A stretch of 35,674 nucleotides of DNA, taken from assembly GCA_030448005.1 (NCBI GenBank), contig JAUJNT010000004.1, positions 258,925 through 294,598 on the forward strand. Direction: 5' to 3'. This document shows positions 17,244 through 29,595 of this stretch, piece after piece. Within the stretch, counting starts at the first letter, position 1. Each line of letters opens with the position of its first letter. The DNA comes from Thermoleophilaceae bacterium. Its GTDB lineage: Bacteria > Actinomycetota > Thermoleophilia > Solirubrobacterales > Thermoleophilaceae. A model generated the notes under the pieces. The model saw only the letters and a list, made by a program, of their open reading frames with translations, did no database searches and was not told the DNA's origin. The position numbers and the translations under genes were made by a program.

Positions 17244-18308
17244 TTGGAATCAGCTTCGATCGCATCCCCGACGGCGCGCTTGCGAGGCGCGGCCGCCGTC
17301 TGGGAGTTCGTCTCGAAGTACGGGCTGATCGCGCTGCTGATTGCCTTTCCAGCGTACTTCGCGATCACGGATCTGAGCAACGGGGAGGGGCTCACCCGGA
17401 TCGGCAACAACCTCGTGGCCGGCCTCTCCAACGGCTCCATCTGGGCTCTCGTGGCCCTCGGCTACACGCTGGTCTACGGCATCATCGAGCTGATCAACTT
17501 CGCCCACGGCGAGGTGTTCATGATCGGCTCGTTCGTCGCCTTCGCCCTCTACGGCACCCTCGGGCTGACGCTGGCGACGGGGCCGCTCGGCCTCGCGGTG
17601 GGACTCTTCGTGGCGCTCATCCTGTCGATGCTGGCCAGCGGCACCCTCAACGTGATGATCGAGCGCGTGGCGTACCGGCCGCTGCGCAACGCGCCGAAGC
17701 TGGCGCCGCTGATAACCGCGGTCGGAGTGTCGTTCATCCTCCAGAACGTCGGGATACTCTGGCTCGGCAGCTCCCAGAAGGCCATTCCGGACCTGATCGG
17801 GGCGCAGAGGGTCCTCGTGGACGTGGCCGGCGTGACGATCTCGCGCGCTGACGTTCTCGCCGTCGGGGTCACCGTGCCGCTCGTGTTCCTGCTCACCGCC
17901 TTCGTGTCCCGCAGCAGGCTCGGGAAGGCCATGCGCGCCACCGCCCAGGATCCGGAGGCCGCGCGACTCATGGGCATCAACGTGGATACCACCATCTCCC
18001 TGACCTTCCTGCTGGGAGGCCTGCTGGCCGGGGCCGCCGGGCTCATCAACGCGCTCTACCAGACCAACGTGTGGTACTTCCAGGGCTTCACCGCCGGACT
18101 GATCGCATTCACCGCCGCGGTCATGGGAGGCATCGGCAACCTCCGTGGGGCCGTGCTCGGCGGGCTGATCATCGGCGTGATCCAGCAGATCTCCGACAAC
18201 CGGATCGGCAACCAGTGGACCCCCGCGGTGGTCTTCGCCTACCTGGTCCTGATCATGGTGTTCCGGCCCCAGGGGCTGATCGGCGAAGAGACGCGCGAGG
18301 CCGGATGA
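17244..18308 (+). CDS. livH: Branched-chain amino acid ABC permease LivH
   Basis: 354 aa from TTG 17244; no better start is seen, and no clear ribosome site. Polytopic membrane protein of the LivH/LivM family. It has the signature GLSNGSIWALVALGYTLVYG followed by IIELINFAHGEVFMIGSF, then several further membrane helices and the cytoplasmic EAA-like loop FVSRSRLGKAMRATAQDPEAARLMGIN, which contacts the ATPases. The end AYLVLIMVFRPQGLIGEE is typical. The N-terminal ~55 residues, with one extra membrane helix (YGLIALLIAFPAYFAIT), are longer than in E. coli LivH. The stop overlaps livM (ATGA). Confidence 0.93.
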   Translation: MESASIASPTARLRGAAAVWEFVSKYGLIALLIAFPAYFAITDLSNGEGLTRIGNNLVAGLSNGSIWALVALGYTLVYGIIELINFAHGEVFMIGSFVAFALYGTLGLTLATGPLGLAVGLFVALILSMLASGTLNVMIERVAYRPLRNAPKLAPLITAVGVSFILQNVGILWLGSSQKAIPDLIGAQRVLVDVAGVTISRADVLAVGVTVPLVFLLTAFVSRSRLGKAMRATAQDPEAARLMGINVDTTISLTFLLGGLLAGAAGLINALYQTNVWYFQGFTAGLIAFTAAVMGGIGNLRGAVLGGLIIGVIQQISDNRIGNQWTPAVVFAYLVLIMVFRPQGLIGEETREAG

Positions 18309-18353
18309 GCCTCACCGAACTTCGCAGCCGGATGAGCCCTACGAAGCTCCGCA
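18300..18353 (+). repeat. 27-base tandem duplication of the livH/livM stop-start junction
   Basis: Units 18300-18326 and 18327-18353 match at 21 of 27 positions, and the first 12 bases (GCCGGATGAGCC) are identical. Each unit contains an ATGA. In the first, the TGA is the livH stop and the ATG is the livM start; in the second, both are in the livM frame context, giving a second in-frame ATG at 18332. The encoded leader is MSLTELRSR then MSPTKLRRS. Confidence 0.75.
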
Positions 18354-19501
18354 GGTCGAGGTGGGCCTCGATGCTGCCGGCGGCCGTGGCGCTCACCGCA
18401 CTGGTGATCTTCCCGGTCTTCCGCGATCCCCTCGACAGCTTCCTGGGGGACTCGATCCTTGCCCTGGCCTTCGTCGTCATGGCACTCGGTCTCAACATCG
18501 TGGTCGGGTTCGCGGGCCTGCTCGACCTGGGGTACGTGGCGTTCTACGCCTTCGGGGCGCTGGCCACCGGCTGGTGGGCCTCCGACTTCTTCACGGGCGT
18601 CAACGGAGAGAGGGGCATCCACATCGGGGCGAGCGAGTTTGCGTCCTCGCTTCCGGGCGTCCACCTCAACTTCCTCCTGATCCTGGTCGGCGCGGTCATC
18701 ATCACGGCGATCGCCGGGGCCATCATCGGCCTGCCGACCTTGCGGCTGCGCGGGGACTACATAGCCATCGTGACGCTGGCGTTCGGCGAGATCATCGGGC
18801 GCATCGCCCAGAACGGCGACGAGCTCACCCTGATCGGCGACTACAAGTTCTCCAACGGCCGTCAGTCGATCTCGCCGATCGACCAGATCAACCTCCCGCT
18901 CATAGGCGAGTTCGACCAGGCCACCAACCTCAGACCCTACTTCTGGATGGGCCTCGCGCTGGTTCTGGTGGTCCTGTTCGTGAACTTCCGCCTGCGCGAC
19001 TCCCGGATGGGGCGGGCATGGATCGCCCTGCGCGAGGACGAGGTGGCGGCGGCCAGCATGGGGGTGCCGCTCGTGAAGACCAAGCTGATGGCCTACGCGG
19101 TCGGTGCCGGGTTCGGGGGCATCTCCGGAGCGTTCCTCGGGGCCTTCCTCAACAGCGTGAACGCCAACCAGTTCCAGTTCGGCTTCTCGATCTTCATCCT
19201 CGCCATGGTGATCCTCGGCGGCCTCGGCAGCATCTGGGGGGTCGTCATCGGCGCCGTGCTGCTCTCGTTCGTCAACACCCGCTTCCTCACCCAGTTGGAT
19301 CAGGGCATCGGCAACGACGTCCTGAACGCGCTCGGCCTCGACTTCACCTTCAACGAGGTCAAGTTCGGCGTGTTCGGCTTCATCCTCGTGCTGGTGATGG
19401 TGCTCAGACCCGAGGGTCTACTGCCCGAGCGACGCCGCAAGCTCGAGCTGACAGAGGGCGTCGGAACCGGAGGCGAATCCGTGTACGAGGCGCGCGCTTG
19501 A
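18305..19501 (+). CDS. livM: Branched-chain amino acid ABC permease LivM
   Basis: 398 aa from ATG 18305; ATG 18332 is an equally placed alternative created by the duplicated junction. Polytopic permease partner of LivH: ALAFVVMALGLNIVVGFAGLLDLGYVAFYAFGA is the LivM hallmark, followed by GLPTLRLRGDYIAIVTLAFGEI, the cytoplasmic loop RDSRMGRAWIALREDEVAAASMGV that contacts LivG/LivF, and FILAMVILGGLGSIWGVVIGA. The hydrophilic leader made by the repeat precedes the first membrane helix. TTGA overlap with livG. Confidence 0.94.
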   Translation: MSLTELRSRMSPTKLRRSRWASMLPAAVALTALVIFPVFRDPLDSFLGDSILALAFVVMALGLNIVVGFAGLLDLGYVAFYAFGALATGWWASDFFTGVNGERGIHIGASEFASSLPGVHLNFLLILVGAVIITAIAGAIIGLPTLRLRGDYIAIVTLAFGEIIGRIAQNGDELTLIGDYKFSNGRQSISPIDQINLPLIGEFDQATNLRPYFWMGLALVLVVLFVNFRLRDSRMGRAWIALREDEVAAASMGVPLVKTKLMAYAVGAGFGGISGAFLGAFLNSVNANQFQFGFSIFILAMVILGGLGSIWGVVIGAVLLSFVNTRFLTQLDQGIGNDVLNALGLDFTFNEVKFGVFGFILVLVMVLRPEGLLPERRRKLELTEGVGTGGESVYEARA

Positions 19502-24124: not shown

Positions 24125-26848
24125 GTGTCCGACGACTCCCCGCGCGAGCTGTTCCTGATCGACGGGAACAGCCTGGTCTACCGCGCCTTCTTCGCGCTCC
24201 CCGAGACGATCGCGACATCGCGCGGGCAGCCTACGAACGCGATCTTCGGCTTCGCGTCCATGCTCGTGAAGCTGCTCACCGAGTACGGCCAGAAGCCCAC
24301 GATCGTGGCGTGGGATGCCGGCATGTCGGGTCGGGAGGTGGCCTACCCCGAGTACAAGGCCGGCCGCAGGTCTCGCCCCGACCTCCTGCGCGAGCAGTGG
24401 CCGCACATGGAGCCGCTGGTGGACGCCTTCGGCTACGCCAACGTCAAGGTCGAGGGCTACGAGGCCGACGACGTGATCGCCACCCTTGCATGCAAGGCCC
24501 GTGCGCGTGGCCTCGAGGTGATGGTGGTCACCGGTGACCGGGACACCTTTCAGCTGATCGAGGATGGGGTGAAGGTGATGGCCACCGGCCGGGGCATCAC
24601 CGACACGAAGATCTACGACCGCGAGGCGGTCGCCGACCGCTACGGGATCCCGCCGGAGCTGATTCCCGACTTCTACGGCCTCAAGGGCGACACTTCGGAC
24701 AACATTCCAGGGGTTCCCGGCATCGGTGACAAGACGGCCGCTCAGCTGCTGCAACAGTTCGGCGACCTCGAGACGGTTCTGGCGAGCATCGACCAGATCT
24801 CCGGCGCCAAGCGCAAGGAGAACCTAGTGGAGCACGCCGAGGACGCTCGCGTCTCGAAGCAGCTGGCCAGCTCGATCCGCGACGTACCGATCGACCTATC
24901 AGACCTCGACGGGTCGCTGGTACGAGAGCCCGACCGGTCACGCCTGCGCGAGGTCTTCCGCGAGTTCGAGCTGCGCGACCCGTTGAGGCGCCTCGAGGAG
25001 GCGCTGGGTAGCGAGGAAGCCGCGGCTCCCCGTCCAGAGCCCTCGGCTGCCCTCTCCGCGCGCGCGCGAGCGGTGCCGCCCGCCACCCTGGGGCAGCTCG
25101 TCGGCGAGCTGGCCACGCTGTCGCTCGAGCGCCCGCCGCCGCCGGAGGACCAGCTTCCCGGGATGGTCGAAAAGGAGCCGCTCCGCTTCGCGGCCTATGC
25201 GGGCGGGCGCGAGGTGCTGTTCGGGGAGGCAGGGTCGCTTTCCGAGGTGATGTCGGCCTGGGGGAGCCGGGCCGTGGTGGCGCATGATTGGAAGTCCGTA
25301 GCGGCGGCCGAGGAGGAGTGCGCCACGCCGCCGCTCGAGCATGACACGGAGGTGGCTGCCTACCTGCTCGATCCGGCACGCCGCGGCTATCCCCTGGCCG
25401 AACTGATCGAGGAGGCGGGGCTCGGCGCCCAGATCGAGGGCGGGGAGGCGCTGGCCGAGCTTGCCGTCGTCACCCGCGCGCTAGCCGAGCGCCAGCGGGG
25501 GATTCTCGAGGAGCTCGACTTGATGAGGTTGATGAACGAGGTGGAGCTGCCGCTCGTGGAGGTGCTGGTGGAGATGGAGCGCGCCGGGGTGAAGCTCGAC
25601 GTGGACACCGTGCGGGCGATCGCCGCACGCGTCGACCAGCAGGCGCTTCAGCTCGAGCGCGAGATCTGGAAGCTCGCCGGTGAGGAGTTCACCATCGGCT
25701 CGCCCCAGCAGCTGGCGCCGATCCTCTTCGAAAAGCTCGGGCTGTCGAAGAAGCGCCGCGGGAAGACCGGGTTCTCCACCGACGCCCGAGTGCTCCATGC
25801 GATCCGGGGCGAGCACGAGATCGTGCCGAAGATCGAGGCCTGGCGAGAGCTGACCAAGCTGAAGTCGACCTATCTCGACGCCTTTCCCTCCCTGCTCGGC
25901 CCCGACGGGCGGCTGCACACCACCTTCAACCAGACGGCGGCCACCACGGGCCGCCTGTCGAGCACCAACCCCAACCTCCAGAACATCCCTATCCGCACCG
26001 AGCTGGGACGCGAGATCCGCGCCTGCTTCACGGCCGAGGAGGGCCATCGGCTGATCTCGGCCGACTACTCGCAGGTCGAGCTGCGCCTGCTGGCCCACAT
26101 CGCCGGGGAGGACGTGCTCAAGGACATCTTTCGCCGGGGAGAGGACGTGCACACGGCCACCGCGGCCCAGATCCTCGGCGCGGGCGGGAAGGATTCGGCA
26201 GGGACGCCGAATGCTTCGCAGTCCGGGAAGGATTCGGCAGGGACGCCGAATGCTTCGCAGTCCGGGAAGGATTCGGCAGGGACGCCGAATGCTTCGCAGT
26301 CCTTCCCCGACCCCGGCACGAGGTCGAAGGCCAAGATGGTCAACTACGGCATCGTCTACGGCCTCTCGGCCTTCGGGCTGGCCGATCGCCTCCAGATCCC
26401 CCAGGAGGAGGCGCAGGAGTTCATCGACCGCTACCTCGAGCGCTTCCCCGCCGTGCGCCGCTTCATCGAGGGCACCGTCGAGCGGGCCACCGACGAGGGC
26501 TTCGTGGCCACGCTCCACGGCCGCATCCGGCGGATCCCCGAGCTGCGCGCGCGCCAGCGCCAGACGCGGCTGCTGGGCGAGCGGCTGGCGGTGAACATGA
26601 TCATCCAGGGCACTGCTGCGGACATCATCAAGGTGGCGATGGTGAGCTGCCGAACCGCTCTCCGCGACGCCGGCCTGTCCACGCGCCTCGTCCTTCAGAT
26701 CCACGACGAGCTGCTCTTCGAGGCGCCCGAGGCCGAGGTCGAGCAGGCGTGCGGGATCGTCCGCACCGAGATGGCCGGCGCCTTCGAGATGGACCCACCG
26801 CTCGAGGTCGACGTGGCGTCGGGCCTCAACTGGCTGGAGGCCAAGTAG
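24125..26848 (+). CDS. polA: DNA polymerase I with in-frame repeat insertion
   Basis: 907 aa, GTG start. Acts in repair and Okazaki-fragment processing. Domain order: 5'-nuclease (1-~290; LFLIDGNSLVYRAFF, EGYEADDVIATLA, VTGDRDTFQLIEDG, LKGDTSDNIPGVPGIG); a degenerate 3'-5' exonuclease region (~330-470) lacking the DEDD catalytic acidic residues; polymerase (~480-907). Polymerase motif A is LISADYSQVELRLLAHI; motif B/O-helix is R733, K737 and Tyr741 in KMVNYGIVYGLSAFGL; motif C is QIHDELLFEAP. Tyr replaces the Phe of Taq and E. coli at the ddNTP-discrimination site, as in mycobacterial PolA. Residues 688-726 are three copies of GKDSAGTPNASQS, placed in the loop before the O-helix. Without them the loop is near Taq length. 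Proofreading is probably absent. Confidence 0.95.
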   Translation: MSDDSPRELFLIDGNSLVYRAFFALPETIATSRGQPTNAIFGFASMLVKLLTEYGQKPTIVAWDAGMSGREVAYPEYKAGRRSRPDLLREQWPHMEPLVDAFGYANVKVEGYEADDVIATLACKARARGLEVMVVTGDRDTFQLIEDGVKVMATGRGITDTKIYDREAVADRYGIPPELIPDFYGLKGDTSDNIPGVPGIGDKTAAQLLQQFGDLETVLASIDQISGAKRKENLVEHAEDARVSKQLASSIRDVPIDLSDLDGSLVREPDRSRLREVFREFELRDPLRRLEEALGSEEAAAPRPEPSAALSARARAVPPATLGQLVGELATLSLERPPPPEDQLPGMVEKEPLRFAAYAGGREVLFGEAGSLSEVMSAWGSRAVVAHDWKSVAAAEEECATPPLEHDTEVAAYLLDPARRGYPLAELIEEAGLGAQIEGGEALAELAVVTRALAERQRGILEELDLMRLMNEVELPLVEVLVEMERAGVKLDVDTVRAIAARVDQQALQLEREIWKLAGEEFTIGSPQQLAPILFEKLGLSKKRRGKTGFSTDARVLHAIRGEHEIVPKIEAWRELTKLKSTYLDAFPSLLGPDGRLHTTFNQTAATTGRLSSTNPNLQNIPIRTELGREIRACFTAEEGHRLISADYSQVELRLLAHIAGEDVLKDIFRRGEDVHTATAAQILGAGGKDSAGTPNASQSGKDSAGTPNASQSGKDSAGTPNASQSFPDPGTRSKAKMVNYGIVYGLSAFGLADRLQIPQEEAQEFIDRYLERFPAVRRFIEGTVERATDEGFVATLHGRIRRIPELRARQRQTRLLGERLAVNMIIQGTAADIIKVAMVSCRTALRDAGLSTRLVLQIHDELLFEAPEAEVEQACGIVRTEMAGAFEMDPPLEVDVASGLNWLEAK
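26186..26302 (+). repeat. Three identical 39-base palindromic units inside polA
   Basis: Units at 26186-26224, 26225-26263 and 26264-26302 are identical and directly adjacent, 13 codons each, encoding GKDSAGTPNASQS. Within each unit, GAAGGATTCGGC and GCCGAATGCTTC form a 12-base hairpin arm pair with a single G-G mismatch, around loop AGGGAC. In the first unit the arms are 26188-26199 and 26206-26217. The palindrome and the frame-preserving length suggest a mobile or amplifying element that tolerates coding sequence, not slippage of a native polA sequence. Confidence 0.95.
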
Positions 26849-28153: not shown

Positions 28154-28185
28154 TTGCGTCCGGGCTGGTGGGGACGATTCGGGGC

Positions 28186-29595
28186 ATGTCCCAGAACTTC
28201 ATCGCTGTTGATCGTGAGCAGGATCTTTTGTTGCCACCTTCGTTGCGGAAGTGGCTGCCGGACGGGCATTTCGCGTGGTTCGTTTTGGACGCGGTCGGGC
28301 AGATGGACTTGTCCGGTTTCTATGCGGCCTACCGCCAGGACGGGCACGGCCGCGCGGCGCACGAGCCGACGCTGATGGTGGCGCTGCTGCTCTATGGGTA
28401 CGCGCGTGCCCTGCGGTCCTCACGACGGATCGAGCGGGCGTGTGTCGAGGACGTCTCGTTCCGGGTCGTCGCGGCCAACCAGGCGCCCGATCACACGACG
28501 ATTGCGCGCTTCAGGCAGCGCCACGAGGCGGCACTCGCGGGCCTGTTTAGCGACGTGCTCGAGCTGTGCGTGGAGGCTGGTTTGGTCGAGCTCGGGGTGG
28601 TCGCGATCGACGGGACGCGGGTGCACGCCAACGCTGGTCGTGACGCGAACACCAAGTACGAGGAGATCGCGAAGGAGATCCTGGCGGAGGCCGACGAGGT
28701 CGATCGCGAGGAGGATGAGCGCCTCGGCGACGGCTCGAGCGTGGACGTGTTGCCGGAGGGGTTTCGCACCCCGGCCGGCCGCAAGGGCTGGCTGCGCGAG
28801 GCAAACCGCCGGCTCGAGGAGCGCCGCGCACAGCAGGCGCAGCCGATCCCGAAGTCGCGCCCTGACCGGCTGCGCGAGTGCAGGCGCAGGCTGGAGGAGG
28901 ACCTTGCGGTCGAGCGCGGGGCAGTCAAGCGCCAGGCGGAGTTCTGGGCGGCCGGGGTCGCCTCTGATGGGAAGCGCCTGAGTCGGCGCCCGAACCCTTA
29001 CACGCCGCCCGCGACGCCGGCCGGTCGCAAGATCAACACCTCCGATCCTGACTCGCGCCGGCTGAAGGCGCCGCAGGGCTACCTGCAGGGCTACAACGCC
29101 CAGAGCGCCGTCAACGACAAGCAGGTCGTGCTCGCCGCCGAGATCAACGCCGAGACCGCCGACTTCGGCCACCTCGAGCCGATCGTCGACGCGACGCTCG
29201 GCGAGCTCGAGGCGGTCGGCGTCAGTGACAGGCCAGCGGTCGTGGTCGCCGACGCGGGCTACTGGCACTCCGAACAGGTGGATGCGATCGTCAGCCGCGG
29301 AATCCAGGTGATCGTGCCCCCCGACGCGGCCGGGCGAAAGACACCCCGGCCGGGCTGGGACGGCGGGCGCTACGCGTTCATGCGACGGGTGCTCGCAACA
29401 GATGCCGGCGGCGAGCTCTACCGAAAACGCCAGGGGATGATCGAACCCGCTTTCGCAGACATGAAGTTCAACCGGCGGATCGACCGTTTCTTACGCCGCG
29501 GGCGCTCCGCCGCACGCTCGGAGTGGCGGATGATCACCGCGACCCACAACCTAATGAAGCTCCACCGCCACCAAATCGCGCCCGCGACCGGGTGA
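28186..29595 (+). CDS. DDE transposase, IS1182-like
   Basis: 469 aa from ATG 28186 (MSQNFIAVDREQDLLLPPSL); six further codons are open upstream. The N-terminal DUF772-like region includes LPDGHFAWFVLDAV, PTLMVALLLYGYARAL, SSRRIERACVEDVSFRVVAANQAPDHTTIARFR. The catalytic triad is Asp142 in VVAIDGTRVHANAG, Asp356 in VVVADAGYWHSEQ and Glu420 in GMIEPAFADMKFN. A charged segment between the first two Asp residues (~165-290) is the usual family insertion. The gene is full length and looks functional, so the element may be recent. Confidence 0.92.
   Translation: MSQNFIAVDREQDLLLPPSLRKWLPDGHFAWFVLDAVGQMDLSGFYAAYRQDGHGRAAHEPTLMVALLLYGYARALRSSRRIERACVEDVSFRVVAANQAPDHTTIARFRQRHEAALAGLFSDVLELCVEAGLVELGVVAIDGTRVHANAGRDANTKYEEIAKEILAEADEVDREEDERLGDGSSVDVLPEGFRTPAGRKGWLREANRRLEERRAQQAQPIPKSRPDRLRECRRRLEEDLAVERGAVKRQAEFWAAGVASDGKRLSRRPNPYTPPATPAGRKINTSDPDSRRLKAPQGYLQGYNAQSAVNDKQVVLAAEINAETADFGHLEPIVDATLGELEAVGVSDRPAVVVADAGYWHSEQVDAIVSRGIQVIVPPDAAGRKTPRPGWDGGRYAFMRRVLATDAGGELYRKRQGMIEPAFADMKFNRRIDRFLRRGRSAARSEWRMITATHNLMKLHRHQIAPATG

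Follow-up and report, generated by a model that had tools for sequence, protein, structure and literature searches.

Rickettsia palindromic elements (RPEs; Ogata et al., summarised in PMC10969869 and PMC3733652) are palindromes of about 150 nt inserted in frame in unrelated genes, where they encode a conserved peptide (PMC10969869). The short RPE-4 and RPE-6 are members of the CGTC class, for which no dedicated transposase is known (PMC3733652). Repetitive extragenic palindromes (REPs) are short palindromes as well, and copies were reported inside polA, dnaE2 and repair genes (PMC3733652). We describe here an element of comparable appearance, encountered in a stretch of 35,674 nt (the window) from the 3.2-Mb genome of a Thermoleophilaceae bacterium (assembly GCA_030448005.1, contig JAUJNT010000004.1, positions 258,925 to 294,598), in which polA, the gene for DNA polymerase I, contains three adjacent palindromic units. 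Very probably, this array arose when one copy of a mobile, non-autonomous palindromic element was triplicated in place; the element has multiplied in one Thermoleophilaceae genus.

The product of the 907-codon polA reading frame matched the Pfam families DNA_pol_A (2e-135), 5_3_exonuc_N and 5_3_exonuc. Direct reading of positions 26186-26302 agreed with the original prediction of three identical 39-nt units, in frame and ahead of the O-helix, each forming a 12-base hairpin with one mismatch. Tandem Repeats Finder returned the same array (period 39, 3.0 copies, 100% match, 26185-26302). The array starts at the first base of codon 688 and occupies codons 688-726, which encode GKDSAGTPNASQS three times, followed by FPDPGT and R733. 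When aligned with Taq polymerase, the sequence breaks between Taq residues 649 and 654 and R733 is matched to the O-helix residue R659, so that the array does lie seven residues ahead of this arginine. Within each unit the 12-base arms, GAAGGATTCGGC and GCCGAATGCTTC, enclose the 6-base loop AGGGAC and contain a single G.G mismatch; the predicted RNA fold has an energy of -20.3 kcal/mol (z -3.7). The 26-base core of the unit is expected 0.00 times by chance in the window, and no Rfam family matched there. Compared with sister genes, the insert exceeds 3 x 39 nt by about one codon (TTC, 26303-26305); this TTC matches the conserved 3' tail of the element (see below), which accounts for the extra codon.

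The same element is dispersed in the genome. Its polA core was found at 25 places with at most 3 mismatches, and a degenerate pattern occurred more than 50 times; in both searches the reversed-pattern control gave 0 matches. A covariance model built from 34 units, whose E-values are rough (short calibration), yielded 68 matches in this genome (G000), a few of which are one palindrome scored on both strands. It yielded 37, 19 and 5 matches in the congeners G002, G003 and G004, 1 in G009, from another genus of the family, and 0 in the congener G001 and in 55 other relatives. A pattern search of 121 genomes concurred, save for one weak match with two mismatches in G116. The family is confined mainly to one Thermoleophilaceae genus of uncultured soil bacteria, and its copies are scattered between and inside genes, mainly in extragenic positions, which points to the mobile family that had been suspected. 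An exact-pattern scan of 84,980 genomes, suited to close matches, gave no Rickettsia record. Exact matches in Solirubrobacterales and Phycisphaerales metagenome-assembled genomes (L144, L152) were set aside: they have neither the outer stem nor the tail, and are probably due to chance or remote. A viral origin was rejected, as IMG/VR held no exact match among its virus contigs. Our literature search found no paper describing this family.

The element measures about 42 nt and consists of a 30-nt hairpin (12-bp stem, ANGGAN loop) and a one-sided 3' tail of 12 nt, GCATCnnTCTCC. An information profile over 61-63 arrays showed a sharp 5' edge, GAAGG, and the conservation of the tail. Seven of the 12 stem pairs are altered on both sides, versus 1.8 in shuffles, and none of 500 shuffles reached as many. 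In a search of G000 with the stem only, blind to the loop and with at most one stem mismatch, an A-N-G-G-A-N loop was present at 46 of 48 places. The N positions take all four bases and the other loop positions are fixed. Arrays hold 1-4 copies with a repeat spacing of 38-44 nt (29 nt in one case). Since units, spacer included, are identical within an array and different between arrays, arrays grow in place, which supports the recent local expansion proposed for polA. Exact 100-N scaffold gaps lie in or beside six other arrays of G000 (L001, L016, L058, L059, L020, L062), and array lengths in the assembly are therefore minimum values. Two kinds of location may be mentioned. One copy in G000 lies directly 3' of the 16S rRNA end, in the 16S-23S spacer and antisense to the rRNA (L019:1501-1530; C6:200492). 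At L060:2417 and L070:1908, the 5' GA of the element, placed after a T, makes the TGA stop of the upstream gene.

Comparison of sites among relatives showed how copies come and go. The insertion site is empty in the polA genes of G001, G002, G003, G007 and G016, so that congeneric genes without the insert exist. In a different loop of its PolA, G003 has its own single in-frame copy, in the opposite orientation (VSKDSASVPNPSR), which is missing from G002. Empty sites were also seen for the leuD and cobA-hemD copies, and two copies in ribosomal operons (rib1 and rib2) are lacking in all alignable relatives. A 23-bp duplication that spans the start of rpsC flanks the rib2 copy, and a target duplication of 36 bp flanks the zwf-opcA copy (we assigned the gene names at both flanks ourselves, from the translations). 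Other sites are common to congeners, namely dnaE2, rib3 (tuf-fusA region), the carA region, cobA-hemD, putA and a response regulator gene, and some copies at the compared sites are decayed or inverted. Taken together, the sites show the pattern that arises when copies insert repeatedly, are inherited vertically, duplicate locally and decay.

Inside genes, the element is read in a single frame. Within the regions fetched for containing matches, we retained 11 independent intragenic sites, with host genes identified by Pfam or by alignment: polA (twice), leuD, pspAB, bipA, carB, putA, rlmN, dnaE2, cobA-hemD and a response regulator. At all 11, whether the element is sense or antisense, the frame is AAG GAT TCG GCN NNN NNN CCN AAT CCT TCN, which gives the peptide K-x-S-A-x-x-P-N-P-S. 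The chance of 11 such agreements is about 3^-11. The frame is the same in both orientations because the unit is a palindrome. Stop codons do not account for the choice, since all six frames of the element consensus are open. Read in the other two frames, the element encodes EGFG.DAESF and RIR.GRRILR-like peptides; we infer that proteins tolerate only the linker of the retained frame, which is polar and rich in turns. A few apparent copies in frame 0 were not counted, as they were traced to N gaps (dnaE2 and an abhydrolase gene in G000), an uncertain N-terminus (carA in G004) or a weak reading frame. The original prediction had compared the polA array to RPEs, as a selfish palindrome tolerated by its host gene; this comparison is borne out, and extended by the one frame found at every reliable intragenic site. 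In addition to what it had claimed, there are the conserved ANGGAN loop and the 3' tail, an orientation that is random relative to genes (see below), a polA insertion in the sister species, and a lack of Y1/RAYT transposases.

What was observed directly is that the element is dispersed, that relatives have empty sites, that polA of a sister species was hit a second time independently, that copies occur in tandem, that stems carry compensatory changes, and that a single frame is used inside genes. The following sequence of events would fit them. The element would insert through a mobile enzyme or one of the host, at times with a duplication of 23-36 bp of the target. Insertions that read as the short polar linker in surface loops would survive selection, and others in genes would be lost. 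Further identical copies would then arise on the spot by slippage or unequal recombination. This would have happened in polA, where the linker would make the loop that precedes the O-helix longer, with no evident harm. Several points weigh against such a mobile element. A clear target duplication was seen in only 2 of about 44 arrays, and a long duplication was rejected as a general rule. Several sites (dnaE2, putA, cobA-hemD, rib3) are shared by congeners, so many copies must be old, and no transposition event was caught in action. No enzyme that mobilises the element was identified. Finally, the number of three units in polA is known from a single assembly, in which other arrays are broken by scaffold gaps.

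Another reading comes from the loop. With its closing pair, it reads C-ANGGAN-G and matches, by sequence alone, the consensus hexaloop of RsmE/CsrA (PMC7652899, PMC3791407). The genome encodes a canonical CsrA, with LVLTRK and R44-type residues. The element might therefore be a mobile one that spreads CsrA-binding hairpins, the binding of CsrA, or of an equivalent loop-reading protein, to the element RNA being needed for its propagation. We consider this unlikely. If true, the loop would be held to C-ANGGAN-G with only the positions that CsrA does not read left free, and the genome would contain dozens of transposed CsrA sites, with tandem ones in polA mRNA. The loop could equally be read by a mobilising protein on single-stranded DNA. 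Because the loop is fixed, the link with CsrA is directly testable.

A similarly unlikely proposal is that the hairpins are CsrA-binding RNA sites, dispersed as a sponge or a regulatory network like the CsrB/RsmZ modules, and that ANGGAN is kept for CsrA binding in transcripts. The consensus match, the encoded CsrA, the near constancy of the loop in the stem-only search, with variability highest at the two N positions, and the frequent tandem arrangement, as in CsrB, agree with it. However, orientation relative to transcription is random: approximately 10 copies are sense and 15 antisense between co-directional genes, and 4 and 7, respectively, inside genes (our own count, gene orientation being scored with a simple codon-usage gene caller). 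Moreover, antisense copies retain the ANGGAN loop equally. A CsrA sponge was rejected as the main explanation on these two grounds, and the random orientation leaves a regulatory role of the ANGGAN match unproven. Nor is there a strand-specific wobble preference save at one pair: outside pair 9-22, T.G was counted 18 times and C.A 19 times, and wobble asymmetry was discarded as a sign of an RNA strand. The 12-bp stems also exceed those of typical CsrA ligands, and at least 34 of 38 csrA-bearing relatives are without the element family. In G001, the congener without the element, no csrA was detected, as in 3 of 41 relatives in all (its assembly is 94% complete, in 270 contigs). Loss of csrA as the cause of the absence of the element was not retained, as this is a single genome whose polA stands at 74% to that of G000, the same as for G016, from another genus; being as distant as another genus, G001 is not informative on this point.

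Mobilisation as an ordinary REP by a RAYT (Y1/TnpA_REP) transposase is very improbable. The size, the palindrome, the extragenic bias and the intragenic copies in polA and dnaE2 fit published REPs (PMC3733652), but neither end of the element carries a GTAG or CGTC tag. Y1_Tnp (PF01797) was absent from all five genomes of the genus (G000-G004), in a search that detected the positive controls, E. coli and others, and RAYT mobilisation was rejected. Hardly credible, finally, is a reading without mobility, in which polA itself underwent an old, local tandem expansion or the array is an artefact of assembly: arrays in G000 do trouble the assembler, but the dozens of dispersed copies, the empty sister sites and the in-frame copies that occur independently in further genes and species refute it as a full explanation, the exact polA copy number apart, and at 117 nt the polA array is below the length of a usual short read.

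Table 1. Position of polA, of its inserted units and of the related insertion in the sister species. Coordinates are those of the window unless a locus is given.
Feature	Position	Strand	Details and basis
polA, DNA polymerase I, 907 aa, host of the insertion	24125..26848	+	Open reading frame; Pfam; Taq polymerase is the best solved homologue
Unit 1, 39 nt	26186..26224	+	Hairpin 26188-26217, loop AGGGAC 26200-26205, short tail
Unit 2, 39 nt, identical	26225..26263	+	Hairpin 26227-26256, loop 26239-26244
Unit 3, 39 nt, identical	26264..26302	+	Hairpin 26266-26295, loop 26278-26283
Terminal 3' tail GCAGTCCTTCCC, compare family tail GCATCnnTCTCC	26296..26307	+	Tail information profile (63 arrays); sister polA alignment
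Arg733 codon, aligned to Taq R659 of the O-helix	26321..26323	+	Codon 733 = 24125 + 732 x 3; seven residues past the array
Element copy in polA of G003	L191 (G003 C82:2000-5448), about 1510-1539	opposite orientation	Alignment with sister polA

The window contains other features. Near polA, a 475-aa reading frame (28168-29595) resembles, and may encode, a transposase of the IS1182 type; no connection between it and the element emerged, and none was tested for. At the trpE-trpG junction (2432-2519), a perfect 40-nt direct repeat, GAACCCGCCAATCATCAGCGGGGGGTACGGGGGGCGCGAG, is present twice, 48 nt apart; this GC-rich repeat is distinct from the element and did not occur in any of the other loci that were fetched. 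An imperfect 27-nt tandem duplication (18300-18354, 82% match) lies where a gene for a branched-chain amino acid ABC permease starts.

Set against the described systems, the element resembles RPEs in being palindromic, selfish in appearance, tolerated, and in frame in many unrelated genes with a conserved peptide, and RPE-4 and RPE-6 in having no known dedicated transposase. It differs from RPEs (about 100-150 bp) by its smaller size, its apparently different sequence, its ANGGAN loop, its high-GC actinobacterial host, its mostly tandem copies with locus-specific spacing, and its identical frame from either orientation. Like the GTAG and CGTC REPs, which are hairpins of 20-40 nt (PMC3733652), it is short, dispersed, mainly extragenic and often near gene ends, where it can supply a stop codon (TAG for GTAG REPs, TGA for the element), and it has intragenic copies in DNA polymerase I and DnaE2 genes. 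In contrast to these REPs, it forms direct tandem arrays instead of inverted dimers and has a conserved loop rather than a conserved foot; with no GTAG or CGTC tag, and no RAYT in the genus, it does not belong to a described REP class. With the CsrA/RsmE-binding hairpins of CsrB and RsmZ it shares the hexaloop, often repeated, whereas it is present in DNA in both orientations, inside genes and with long stems, and binding is predicted from sequence only.

We conclude that this is a previously undescribed selfish element of the REP/RPE type, retained at sites where its translation is a harmless linker. Essential genes are thus colonised in frame, in the manner of RPEs, in soil actinobacteria too, and not just in reduced intracellular genomes. 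The two independent polA insertions and the dnaE2 one recall reports that REPs are over-represented in genes for DNA synthesis and repair. Lastly, a palindrome that is open in six frames but kept in one is a natural experiment, with which one can measure how selection acts on inserted linkers at the protein level.
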